This document shows, in pieces, positions 14,882 through 18,361 of a stretch of 32,652 nt of DNA. Source of the stretch: Candidatus Wolfebacteria bacterium. Lineage in GTDB: Bacteria > Patescibacteriota > Minisyncoccia > Phycocordibacterales > EsbW-18. The DNA is taken from positions 1 to 32,652 of the forward strand of contig JAKEFG010000004.1 in assembly GCA_022616195.1 (NCBI GenBank). The letters run 5' to 3'. Positions within the stretch are counted from its first letter, which is position 1; each line of letters begins with the position of its first letter. The translations under genes and the position numbers were made by a program. A model generated the notes under the pieces. The model saw nothing but the letters and a program-made list of their open reading frames with translations. It made no database searches and was not told where the DNA came from.

Positions 14882-16843
14882 TTAGTTCTTGATGTTGATT
14901 GCATCCGTCTCGAAGTCTTCAACCGGGGTCGCCGTTTGCTCATCCGTTGGAACTGCCGCTGTTGAAGCGAAGTTCAACGTATCAAGCTGCAGCTGGTAGA
15001 ACGAGGTCAGCTCCGGGTCAAAGACAACCGTCAAGGTGAAGGTCTCTGTTTGACCGTCGCTTACCCGGAAGAAGCTGCCCGAGGTGTCGGCGCTTGAGGT
15101 CAGCGACGAGCTCAAGGTGCCGGTTGTCGTCGCGACACCGCCAGCCGTTGCATCCTCAATAACGTAGTTGACACCGTCTGCAGGCGTTCCGTCCGCCGCG
15201 CCGCGCTCCGCAGTCTTCTCAACGAAGACATCCTGGTCAAGCGCGAACACTTCAAAGACGATCTTGAACTCCGCCTCGTTGTCAGTCGTTGTGGCGTCGT
15301 CGTTCTCAATTGGCGTCTCGTCTACCGAGACAACATCAATGAAGACACCTGCGGTGCGGAGCGTCTGCTCCTCACCCACGACGGTACCGGTCTTGTCGCC
15401 CGTGCCGAGCTCCTCGCCGGTTTCGTCTTCGGCATCAATGGCATCACGCTCGGCTGAGGTAACATCAGCTTTGATGCTAGTACCCTCGTCGTAGTTGCCG
15501 GTCTGCTCGTTGACATCTACACGCACCTGCGCGTTGACCTTGTCGTCCTCGCTAAGCTCGTGGTCAATGTCATCGAAGACAACTGTCTGTATGTCGCCAC
15601 CACCTGTTGAGATGGTCTCCGAGTATTCCTGGCCGTCAATCTCAAGAATGACGCGGTTCGCGACATCGCTCACGTCCTGTGTCGTTGAGCTGATGGTAAG
15701 CAGAACCGGAAACTCAAAGACGGTGATGTCGGCGTTTCGCGCCTCAAGCTCAAAGTCGAGCAGGAGTACGTCGTCGGTGTCGGTCGTGTCATCAACCGCT
15801 ACTGTCTGCGCGTCAGGGTTGTCGTCGCCTTCCGTGAGACGAAGCTCAACGCCCGAGGCGCTGGCAAAGGTCTCAAGGGTGAAGGTTTCGCTGAACGCAC
15901 CCGTGTCGTACTCGTCAACAACACCGTTCGGTGAAGCCGCGCGAATACCGTCAGCCGGGATTGCAACGGTCCAGCCGTCGCCCTCGTCAGCGGAGTCAAG
16001 GTTGTTGACTCCGGTTACCGCAACCGTGAGTTCACCCACATCCCCTTCCTCAAGGATGCCCTCAAGGCCGGTGAAGCGGCAAGTGTACTCGTCGGCGCTC
16101 CGGTCGTGGCTACAGTCGTCTACATCCATGCGGCCGAGCTCGTCGCCGTCAAGCCAGACGCTTACGTCCTCAATGTAGTCCTCCAAGTCATCACTTGGAG
16201 CTGTTCCTGCCGGTGTATCAATCTCAACGATGACGCGCTCAATCATCTGGTCGGCGTCAACCGCCTCCATTTCTACACCAAGAACGATTGCATCCTCTTC
16301 TTCTTCGCCAACCTCCTCGCTTGAATAGCTGGAGAGCTGGTCGAACTCATCAAGGAATCCTTCGTCGTTGCCGCCGAAGAAGTCGCCATCACCGTCGCCG
16401 TCACCATCGCCGTCGCCATCGCCGTCGCCACTCGGTACACATACTGCGTTGTACTGGGCGAGTGAGATCGGACCCCAGTAACCGGCTGCCGGTGAGACAC
16501 CGTTAGCAGCCTGCCATGCGGCAACTGCCGACTGGGTAATAGGACCAAAGTAACCGGTCGCACCACCCGAGAAGGTGAAGTGACCCGTACCCTGGAGGTA
16601 CGTCTGGAGTGCCGTGACGTCCGCACCCTGTGACCCGATCGTCAGATCGCGGGTGTACACGTAGCAGCCTGCGCCACCGCCTCCGCCGCCCTGAAGGGCC
16701 AGAAGTTGTGCCTGCAAGGTTGCAATCTGGGCAAGCAAGCTCTCAATCGTCTGCGCGCCTACGTTTGTAGGAAACGCAAACAATGCAAGCATGCCTACTG
16801 CAACAACTCCAGCGAGAACTTTTGCTGAAATTCTTTTACTCAT
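14882..16843 (-). CDS. Large acidic surface (S-layer-like) protein with peptidoglycan-binding domain
   Basis: The protein has 653 residues. A signal peptide (about 1-30, ending NVGAQ) is followed by a Leu/Gln heptad stretch (IESLLAQIATLQAQLLAL). Next is a PG_binding_1-like domain (about 60-130) with GADVTALQTYLQGTGHF and GYFGPITQSAVAAWQ. A linker of eight Gly-Asp pairs leads to about 450 residues of very acidic beta-rich repeats (VILEIDGQEYSETI-like strands, many D/E). The design fits a wall-anchored surface-layer or stalk protein, and the acidic repeats may bind Ca2+. It has a strong promoter 380 nt upstream and a strong terminator, suggesting high expression. Exact function is inferred. Confidence 0.8.
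   Translation of the reverse strand: MSKRISAKVLAGVVAVGMLALFAFPTNVGAQTIESLLAQIATLQAQLLALQGGGGGGAGCYVYTRDLTIGSQGADVTALQTYLQGTGHFTFSGGATGYFGPITQSAVAAWQAANGVSPAAGYWGPISLAQYNAVCVPSGDGDGDGDGDGDGDGDFFGGNDEGFLDEFDQLSSYSSEEVGEEEEDAIVLGVEMEAVDADQMIERVIVEIDTPAGTAPSDDLEDYIEDVSVWLDGDELGRMDVDDCSHDRSADEYTCRFTGLEGILEEGDVGELTVAVTGVNNLDSADEGDGWTVAIPADGIRAASPNGVVDEYDTGAFSETFTLETFASASGVELRLTEGDDNPDAQTVAVDDTTDTDDVLLLDFELEARNADITVFEFPVLLTISSTTQDVSDVANRVILEIDGQEYSETISTGGGDIQTVVFDDIDHELSEDDKVNAQVRVDVNEQTGNYDEGTSIKADVTSAERDAIDAEDETGEELGTGDKTGTVVGEEQTLRTAGVFIDVVSVDETPIENDDATTTDNEAEFKIVFEVFALDQDVFVEKTAERGAADGTPADGVNYVIEDATAGGVATTTGTLSSSLTSSADTSGSFFRVSDGQTETFTLTVVFDPELTSFYQLQLDTLNFASTAAVPTDEQTATPVEDFETDAINIKN
16382..16429 (-). 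repeat. Eight-unit GGCGAY microsatellite coding (Gly-Asp)8
   Basis: Eight tandem 6-bp units encode the flexible acidic linker between the wall-binding domain and the repeats of the surface protein. Copy number could change by slippage without breaking the frame. Confidence 0.9.
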
Positions 16844-17229: not shown

Positions 17230-17276
17230 ATTATATCGCCCCAAGGAAAGCGGTGTAAGCGCATCCTTGTGGATAA
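17230..17276 (-). promoter_or_regulatory. Strong promoter of the surface-protein unit, with adjacent DnaA box
   Basis: On the minus strand TTACAC (17253-17258), a 17-nt spacer and TATAAT (17230-17235) form a near-consensus sigma-70-type promoter. A perfect DnaA box (17268-17276) lies just upstream of the -35. Confidence 0.7.
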
Positions 17277-17358: not shown

Positions 17359-18174
17359 TTATTCCCTCCGCGGTCTGAGAGAATAGCGAGTCCAGCGACG
17401 TTTTCCTTCTTGCTTGACACGTCCCTCAGAAATGAGCGTGTTAAGATCACGCTGGATAGTCTTTTCGCTGTAATCAGAAATGGCCGCGCGTATCTCCCGT
17501 ATTGAGAGTACGCCACCATGACGCAGAAAAGCAAGAATCTTATCCTTCCTTGCACTCGCCAGCTCTTCATTGGAAGACGAAATATGCCTTATTTTCTTAC
17601 CTTCTCTTGAGTGTCCTTTAGAAAAATCTACTTTGTCCTTTATATTATCTCTCTCAACAGAGGCCGAGGTCGTGTCTTTTTCATTTCCCCTATCGTGTCC
17701 TTTAGATGATGCATCATTGACAGAGTTGAGAAGTGATGTGTGATGATCTTCTTCAAAAACATTGAAAAAATCAGATGCCAAATAGCCATCCGATGCAATA
17801 ACACCATACCGCTCCTTGAGTAAACGCCCCAGTTGAGCGAGTTCCCCGGTCAGGAGCTCTGCGTTCATGGGAGATATGAGTTCTGCGGCGCGCCCGATGT
17901 CAAGAAGGGAGAGTAGTTCCGAGATTATCGGTACAACACGGACTTCAACATGGAAACTACGTTTTGTGTCCTTTAGCGGAAGAAGTTCACCGATAAGTGA
18001 GAGTGCCGAGTGTCGGAGTTGCCATTTCAAGGACTCTTCAGGACTGATGAGATTAGTAATAAGATAAACCGCCGTGACAATTCTCTCTACCTTTTTGTAT
18101 AGAAAGAAAAAGAATCTGCTCGAAACATCAGCGCTTAGTTGAGACATATTTTTTGACGAGTTGTTTTCCTGCAT
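17359..18174 (-). CDS. Winged-helix (DeoR-type) DNA-binding protein
   Basis: The protein has 271 residues. The N-terminal ~130 residues are helical (FFFFLYKKVERIVTAVYLITNLIS; SALSLIGELLPLKD) and family-unknown. A Ser/Lys/Asp-rich linker (about 145-200) follows, then a C-terminal winged helix (about 208-262) with LSIREIRAAISDYSEKTIQRDLNTLISEG, a DeoR-like recognition region. It is probably a transcription regulator. The start at 18174 is chosen because AAAGGA lies 6 nt upstream and a TATAAT (18248-18253) with TTGCGT 16 nt before it gives a roughly 67-nt leader; an ATG at 18249 overlaps that -10. The gene carries six copies of TAAAGGACA, one of them being its own Shine-Dalgarno. Confidence 0.75.
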   Translation of the reverse strand: MQENNSSKNMSQLSADVSSRFFFFLYKKVERIVTAVYLITNLISPEESLKWQLRHSALSLIGELLPLKDTKRSFHVEVRVVPIISELLSLLDIGRAAELISPMNAELLTGELAQLGRLLKERYGVIASDGYLASDFFNVFEEDHHTSLLNSVNDASSKGHDRGNEKDTTSASVERDNIKDKVDFSKGHSREGKKIRHISSSNEELASARKDKILAFLRHGGVLSIREIRAAISDYSEKTIQRDLNTLISEGRVKQEGKRRWTRYSLRPRRE

Positions 18175-18253
18175 CGTATGTCCTTTAGAACTCCGTACCA
18201 CCCACTTGTCCTTTATAAACAGCCGCGACTCTGTCCTATTGATGTCCATTATA
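17611..18253 (-). repeat. Cluster of TAAAGGACA motifs in and before the winged-helix gene
   Basis: Read on the minus strand, exact TAAAGGACA occurs near 17612, 17634, 17696, 17967, 18178 and 18207. A one-mismatch copy (TATAATGGACAT) lies on the -10 at 18243-18254. Copies extend to CTAAAGGACAC or ATAAAGGACAA. Inside the gene they are read in two different frames (SKGH and KD), so the DNA or RNA string is what is kept, not a peptide. No further exact copy is seen elsewhere in the window. Confidence 0.75.
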
Positions 18254-18361
18254 TATCGGACATGCCGGAACGCAAGCATCTCTTAGTGAAAACAAAGGGC
18301 ATGCGCACCGGCACGTCCCGTGGAGGGTGTTTCGCATGCTACTATTGAGCTCAACACAAGA

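Follow-up and report, generated by a model that had tools for sequence, protein, structure and literature searches.

A recurrent nine-base site at a winged-helix gene and at a candidate replication origin of Paceibacteria: evidence for a putative autoregulated, origin-binding protein

Background

Why is a single nine-base word, TAAAGGACA, repeated through the promoter, leader and coding region of one bacterial gene? The question arises from a stretch of 32,652 bases (hereafter the window), in which an earlier note, made from the sequence alone, described the repetition around a gene for a winged-helix protein. That note argued that the word is selected as DNA or RNA and not as peptide, proposed autoregulation as the simplest model, and listed uptake-type sequences and slippage-derived repeats as alternatives. 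Here we report a computational follow-up which leads from this gene to a candidate chromosomal origin, and bears on how episymbiotic Patescibacteria time chromosome replication.

In the literature searched, we found no paper on the oriC sequence of Patescibacteria and none on the winged-helix protein or its family, and a full-text search for TAAAGGACA returned only unrelated papers among the matches listed. A 2025 study equates the origin of Patescibacteria with the location of dnaA (PMC12102498).

Results and discussion

The repeated word in the window

A search of the entire window detected six exact copies of TAAAGGACA within positions 17612-18251, each of them on the minus strand. The recount agrees with the earlier tally of six exact copies and one near copy in about 640 bp, with no exact copy elsewhere in the 32,652 bases; six other variants known from relatives are absent from the window. 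The gene that carries the word, delimited from the open reading frame (ORF), the alignment and an AlphaFold model, occupies 17359-18174 on the minus strand and encodes 271 amino acids from an ATG at 18174. This ATG is the likelier start, since the ORF itself extends up to 18279 and hence past the -10 box described below. With this start, four copies are intragenic, two of them read in the frame SKGH (17612-17620 and 17696-17704) and two in the frame KD (17634-17642 and 17967-17975), and two lie in the leader (18179-18187 and 18207-18215). The AAAGGA of the first leader copy is plausibly placed as a Shine-Dalgarno sequence, 6 nt 5' of the ATG, as had been suggested. The near copy, TAATGGACA (minus strand, 18243-18251), overlaps the -10 hexamer. 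The six exact copies thus fall in two frames of the long ORF, giving the peptides KD and KGH, and compare with a mean of 0.42 and a maximum of 4 copies in 2,000 synonymous-codon shuffles of that ORF.

The genome from which the window derives (631 kb in 24 contigs) contains 24 exact copies of TAAAGGACA and 10 of a reversed control word. Seventeen of the 24 belong to three clusters, at the winged-helix gene (6), at contig C22, 51322-54233 (8), and at contig C7, 11062-11105 (3), so that the word is neither common genome-wide nor unique to the gene. Nor is it missing from the corresponding loci of relatives, as described next; these were the two outcomes that the earlier note had named as contrary to its reading.

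Conservation at orthologous genes

Relatives of the winged-helix gene were found in 57 of 60 genomes, almost every one of them from a separate family of the order and mostly with one relative per genome, among them named Taylor-, Zambryski-, Nomura- and Campbellbacteria. On these genome counts, it is a single-copy, order-wide core gene of Paceibacteria. Full-length relatives occur across the class (238 class genomes scanned), and in a scan of the phylum outside the class nearly all matches were to the helix-turn-helix (HTH) domain only, in other proteins. Forty-one aligned proteins share about 24-33% identity with that of the window, conservation being concentrated in an N-terminal helical bundle and in the C-terminal stretch SEKTIQR...GERRWSRYSL. 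The gene neighbourhood is also kept, with recA, a small ORF and the divergent ftsK on one side and the gene for a secreted protein with a peptidoglycan-binding domain on the other.

We examined 41 orthologous loci, each of up to 15 kb (32 kb in the case of the window). The coding sequences and the 200 bp upstream of them contain 115 copies of TAAAGGACA (2.7-2.8 per kb) and 517 kb of flanking DNA three (0.006 per kb), so that the word is some 450 times denser at the gene than around it. A set of 72 named loci, which partly overlaps the 41 and brings the number of distinct loci to 103, gave 1.5-1.9 copies per kb at the gene and 0.008 per kb in the flanks. Among single-base variants at these 72 loci, TAAAAGACA, TAATGGACA, AAAAGGACA, TTAAGGACA and TAAAGGAC[GT] are enriched, whereas CAAAGGACA, TAAAGCACA, TAAAGGATA and TAAAGGACC are not; such a division is the behaviour of a recognition site. 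TAAAGGACA remains the most frequent 9-mer near the gene in the other orders of the class, where TAATGGACA and TAACGGACA appear as further forms and the site drifts mildly with the protein, as TAA[ATC]GGACA.

Copies at the 41 loci encode KD in 43 cases and KG[HQ] in 34. Across the 103 coding sequences we counted 188 copies, against an expectation of 28.6 (standard deviation 4.6) from synonymous shuffles that held protein and codon usage fixed. Since it is dense at orthologues, uses two frames and far exceeds the synonymous-codon expectation, the 9-mer is kept at the level of nucleic acid, which upholds the earlier argument from its two frames. Copy number, spacing and codon shuffles together reject its interpretation as a peptide repeat, and on the same grounds we discard the uptake-type sequence and slippage that had been offered as alternatives. 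That the word is an uptake sequence, a slippage product or a chance occurrence seems scarcely credible, even though the copies are crowded into 640 bp and tandem 9-bp copies exist in cca (see below). An uptake sequence requires hundreds to thousands of dispersed copies, whereas the genome of the window has its 24, clustered, in 631 kb and most genomes hold about 5-34, close to the control count overall; slippage or chance, for its part, is contradicted by the shuffles and by copies that are separated by unrelated sequence and kept across families at about 30% protein identity.

A site fused to the promoter

The near copy had been noted to overlap the -10 element. The hexamer TATAAT (18248-18253) is in fact fused to the site TAATGGACA, forming TATAATGGACA at 18243-18253 on the minus strand. 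On the same strand, TGTCC (18258-18262) constitutes an inverted partner, at a spacing of 10 nt, of the GGACA at 18243-18247, and TTGCGT (18270-18275), 16 nt upstream of the -10 box, is the probable -35 element, orthologous promoters having TTG(A/C). The fusion of -10 box and site recurs, as TATAATGGAC, at 48 of the 103 distinct orthologous loci; TTG(A/C) is present in the -35 window of 31 of these 48 promoters, and the inverted repeat TGTCC-N10-GGACA, spanning the -10 box as it does in the window, in 10. The promoter layout is that of an autorepressed promoter, and TATAATGGACA is a putative autoregulatory operator. Autoregulation, as originally proposed, is made probable by this conserved operator-like site overlapping the -10 box, by the conservation of the word at orthologous loci and by the shuffles.

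Leaders that follow fused promoters contain 114 ARGACA half-sites in the sense orientation and 5 in the antisense, and at the 41 genes themselves 98 copies of the word are sense and 17 antisense. Such a bias of leader half-sites (in the window, for example, at 18175-18242) is not needed by a simple DNA operator. Because RNA recognition would also orient the sites in this way, in leaders and at the gene alike, an RNA-level role is conceivable, in which the winged-helix protein or another protein would control translation by binding UAAAGGACA in the mRNA, both in its leader and in its coding part. One copy does sit at the Shine-Dalgarno sequence, and the N-terminal fold of the protein resembles the S23/Avd group, some members of which act with RNA. 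We nevertheless regard action on RNA as improbable: the copy whose position is best conserved is joined to the -10 box, and its inverted partner lies in the promoter spacer, neither of which is transcribed; at the second locus described below, DnaA boxes that lie between convergent genes have inverted pairs around them; and the C-terminus of the protein is a winged helix of the DNA-binding type.

The encoded protein

From its N- to its C-terminus, the protein consists of a helical bundle, a disordered linker and a winged helix. Its AlphaFold model has a pLDDT of 79, with low confidence in the linker and values mostly above 90 in the N-terminal domain. When compared by Foldseek, the latter matched S23/Avd four-helix bundles (PDB 2gsc, 2rld, 4dwl, 8ub7) with a target-normalised TM-score of about 0.8, a probability of 1.0 and a best E value of 1.9e-3. 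This is moderate evidence that the predicted domain is an S23/Avd-like up-down four-helix bundle. Unlike S23 ribosomal and Avd proteins, it has no sequence match to them, is fused to a winged helix and is found outside diversity-generating retroelement (DGR) or rRNA contexts.

The winged-helix domain (residues ~209-271; 17362-17550, minus strand) contains SEKTIQR...GERRWSRYSL and is the best-conserved part of the family. Its Foldseek matches are winged helices, including that of the centromere-binding AspA. It just passes the PF08220 profile of DeoR regulators (22 bits, cut-off 21; HTH at residues 209-252 of 271), which 22 of the 41 orthologues match at E<=0.01; unlike DeoR regulators, it places the HTH at the C-terminus and has no match to the sugar-binding DeoRC domain. 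The earlier label "DeoR-like" is hence apt for the HTH fold and not for the family. Apart from such weak HTH matches, neither Pfam nor NCBIfam offers a family that covers the protein, and a sequence search of the PDB returned no relative. A LexA/SOS repressor was rejected, as there is no match to the S24 peptidase and the neighbouring recA has zero copies of the site. By sequence, then, the protein is not a member of any family tested, DeoR, LexA and Rep included.

A candidate replication origin at xth-cca-yraN

The other recurrent cluster of sites in relatives, here written TAAARGACA, is located in the xerC-xth-cca-yraN region. Sites occur at 29 of 30 cca loci (128 sites and 5 control words in 132 kb), a strict DnaA box at 23 and a parS-like palindrome at 20. 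Two composite arrangements recur. Between cca and yraN, TGTGGATAA-N16-18-TAAARGACA is found, typically as TGTGGATAACTCTGTGGATATGTGTATAAAAGACA, in which the last DnaA box of the conserved array, TGTGTATAA, shares 3 bp with the TAAARGACA site. Between xth and cca, inverted sites stand on both sides of a DnaA box, as in TAAAGGACACTTATCCACAGAAATGTCCTTTA. Both composites are present in degenerate form in the genome of the window, around TTGTCCACA at C22, 51322-51353, and as TATGTGTAAAAGACA at about C22, 53742. The composite pattern is rare outside the order, and we therefore limit the origin claim to the order.

The cumulative GC-skew minimum lies 0-6 kb from the site cluster in four of the five contigs analysed: at 138,167 for a cluster at 136.3-138.9 kb (G050), at 83,510 for one at 83.1-83.9 kb (G004, a single-contig genome of which 200 kb were examined), at 160,312 for one at 166.2-171.7 kb, 6 kb apart (G005), and at 145,557 for one at 146.7-147.4 kb, about 1 kb off and with cca 3-5 kb away (G044). 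The fifth disagrees, its minimum (192.6 kb) being 29 kb from the cluster (221.6 kb) and near dnaA (G027). The xth-cca-yraN cluster is likely to be the replication origin of the order. In the skew-analysed contigs dnaA is about 30-40 kb from the cluster, and in one further genome (G016) it is 3.4 kb beyond yraN; the dnaA promoter, considered as a possible target, has no site cluster. In the 267 kb read of G005 and the 400 kb read of G027, the main clusters are the winged-helix gene and the origin, separated by about 126 kb and 118 kb, respectively. In G044 (C1, 140721-147434), the origin apparently lies a few kb from cca and the TAAARGACA sites are with the origin; the DnaA boxes there are not strict TTATCCACA.

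Sites also extend into cca, whose coding sequences hold 35, compared with 5.2 in synonymous shuffles. On this count cca is a housekeeping gene with codons bent to hold a DNA signal. A site at a similar place inside cca, encoding IKD-type peptides, was observed at five loci (L264, L265, L271, L275 and L277).

Clusters at an origin could alternatively serve chromosome organisation or segregation and not initiation, in the manner of Noc, SMC-loading or MatS sites. The origin clusters do adjoin parS-like sites, and the winged-helix gene is the divergent neighbour of ftsK. The sites, however, extend over no more than a few kb and adjoin DnaA boxes at a constant distance, and are not spread over the origin-proximal or terminus half of the chromosome, which makes this function quite improbable. 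Neither is TAAARGACA the ParB/parS palindrome GTTTCACGTGAAAC, the parS-like sites standing separately beside it.

A putative origin-binding regulator

Of the earlier interpretation, selection on nucleic acid stands and autoregulation is probable; the conserved sites among origin DnaA boxes had been missed. Because the site is conserved there, the most likely role of the protein is that of a regulator which binds the origin and also controls itself. We consider it probable that TAAARGACA is the recognition site of the encoded Paceibacteria protein, acting as an autoregulated and probably negative origin-binding regulator. That the protein binds the site is argued from location and conservation, that is, guilt by location, and its putative self-repression and blocking of DnaA have the same basis. 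It would bind the operator fused to its own -10 box, along with the leader and intragenic copies, and so repress its own synthesis; at the xth-cca-yraN origin it would bind TAAARGACA and control, most likely restrain, the assembly of DnaA. A site over the terminal DnaA box and arrays flanking cca fit a DnaA-competing regulator, the level of which autorepression would hold. Avd oligomerises; if the N-terminal bundle of the protein does likewise, it may, with the multiple sites, make binding cooperative or permit looping.

In iteron Rep systems, direct-repeat sites lie beside origin DnaA boxes and inverted half-sites lie over the promoter of the rep gene itself. The main rival to negative regulation, a positive co-initiator like plasmid Rep or RctB, draws on this resemblance: the origin sites would be iterons that aid melting or recruit DnaA or helicase, and the inverted half-sites would mediate autorepression. 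The protein shares with iteron Rep and Vibrio RctB repeated sites beside DnaA boxes, inverted half-sites over its own promoter (at the 10 of 48 promoters given above) and, as predicted here, DNA binding by a winged helix, and nearly all genomes of the order have its gene, as a single copy. It differs in having no similarity to Rep or RctB families in Pfam or NCBIfam, in acting, if at all, at a DnaA-type chromosomal origin and in a gene far from that origin. As DnaA and its boxes are retained, and as sites that overlap or tightly flank DnaA boxes form the layout of an inhibitor, we judge a co-initiator unlikely.

At oriC, the sites of CtrA, Spo0A and AdpA overlap DnaA boxes; these regulators, like HP1021, compete there with DnaA (PMC4285127). 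The negative regulator proposed here resembles these four in its short oriC site overlapping or flanking DnaA boxes, its DNA-binding domain of transcription-factor type and its presumed transcriptional role. It is unrelated to them, lacking a receiver or AraC domain and combining a C-terminal winged helix with an S23/Avd-like bundle; its sites also lie inside its own coding sequence and cca, and it is confined to Paceibacteria. The kind, an origin-binding regulator, is thus known, and the protein, site and origin architecture appear to be new. A bolder proposal, which we regard as speculative yet conceivable, is that Paceibacteria possess a class-specific second origin-recognition protein. It would co-assemble with DnaA or license it, the origin being split (xth|cca|yraN) and usually ~30 kb from dnaA, and the sites in the promoter and coding region of its gene would set its dosage; this would be a two-protein initiation switch that evolved in host-dependent bacteria.

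These results provide a concrete candidate oriC (xth-cca-yraN, usually ~30 kb from dnaA) that carries a conserved array of DnaA boxes, together with a candidate regulator whose site is readable. Regulator and site can be tested in vitro from synthetic DNA, with no need for host culture, and TAAARGACA sites offer a means of locating origins by sequence in draft CPR genomes.

Co-occurrence and other targets

Paired TAANGGACA sites were detected in 40 of 238 class genomes; the protein is present in 36 of these 40 and in 117 of the 198 genomes without pairs (p=1e-4, phylogeny ignored), a co-occurrence that is partly circular because many pairs fall inside the gene. One genome of the order, G025, has neither a detectable protein nor site pairs, and two draft genomes (G059 and G023) have pairs and no clear orthologue. 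The latter pattern may reflect assembly gaps or may count against the link between protein and site. Together with the indirect basis of that link, it is what favours another factor as the binder of TAAARGACA, with the winged-helix gene merely one target. We find this distinctly unlikely, as the densest and most universal clustering is on the winged-helix gene itself, for which autoregulation is the usual reason, and as the site drifts along with the protein in other orders.

TAAARGACA clusters of a third kind, which are often inverted pairs, were observed at C7, 11062-11105, in the genome of the window and at four further loci (L106, L108, L117 and L118). These clusters lie near or upstream of genes for large secreted proteins with Ig-like, SpaA or TIG domains, and sometimes adjoin valS or type IV pilin genes. 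Because some sites are upstream of secreted surface-protein genes, the role of the protein may be broader.

A DnaA box, TTATCCACA, is located in the window at 17268-17276 (minus strand), downstream of the winged-helix gene and immediately 5' of a TTTTGCA...TATAAT-like promoter, itself leading to the gene for the secreted protein with a peptidoglycan-binding domain (14882-16843). Thirty-five of the 41 orthologous loci keep it, against an expectation of 0.03 per 800 bp. We rejected this box as an origin and regard it as a promoter element of the surface-protein gene; a conserved box just upstream of the promoter suggests that DnaA controls a major surface gene. Finally, the copies of TAAAGGACA at C3, 11989, and C4, 61110, in the genome of the window are each some 90 bp away from a contig end, in the near-identical context gagTTAAAGGACAaaacgggttg, which suggests a repeat at which the assembly breaks.
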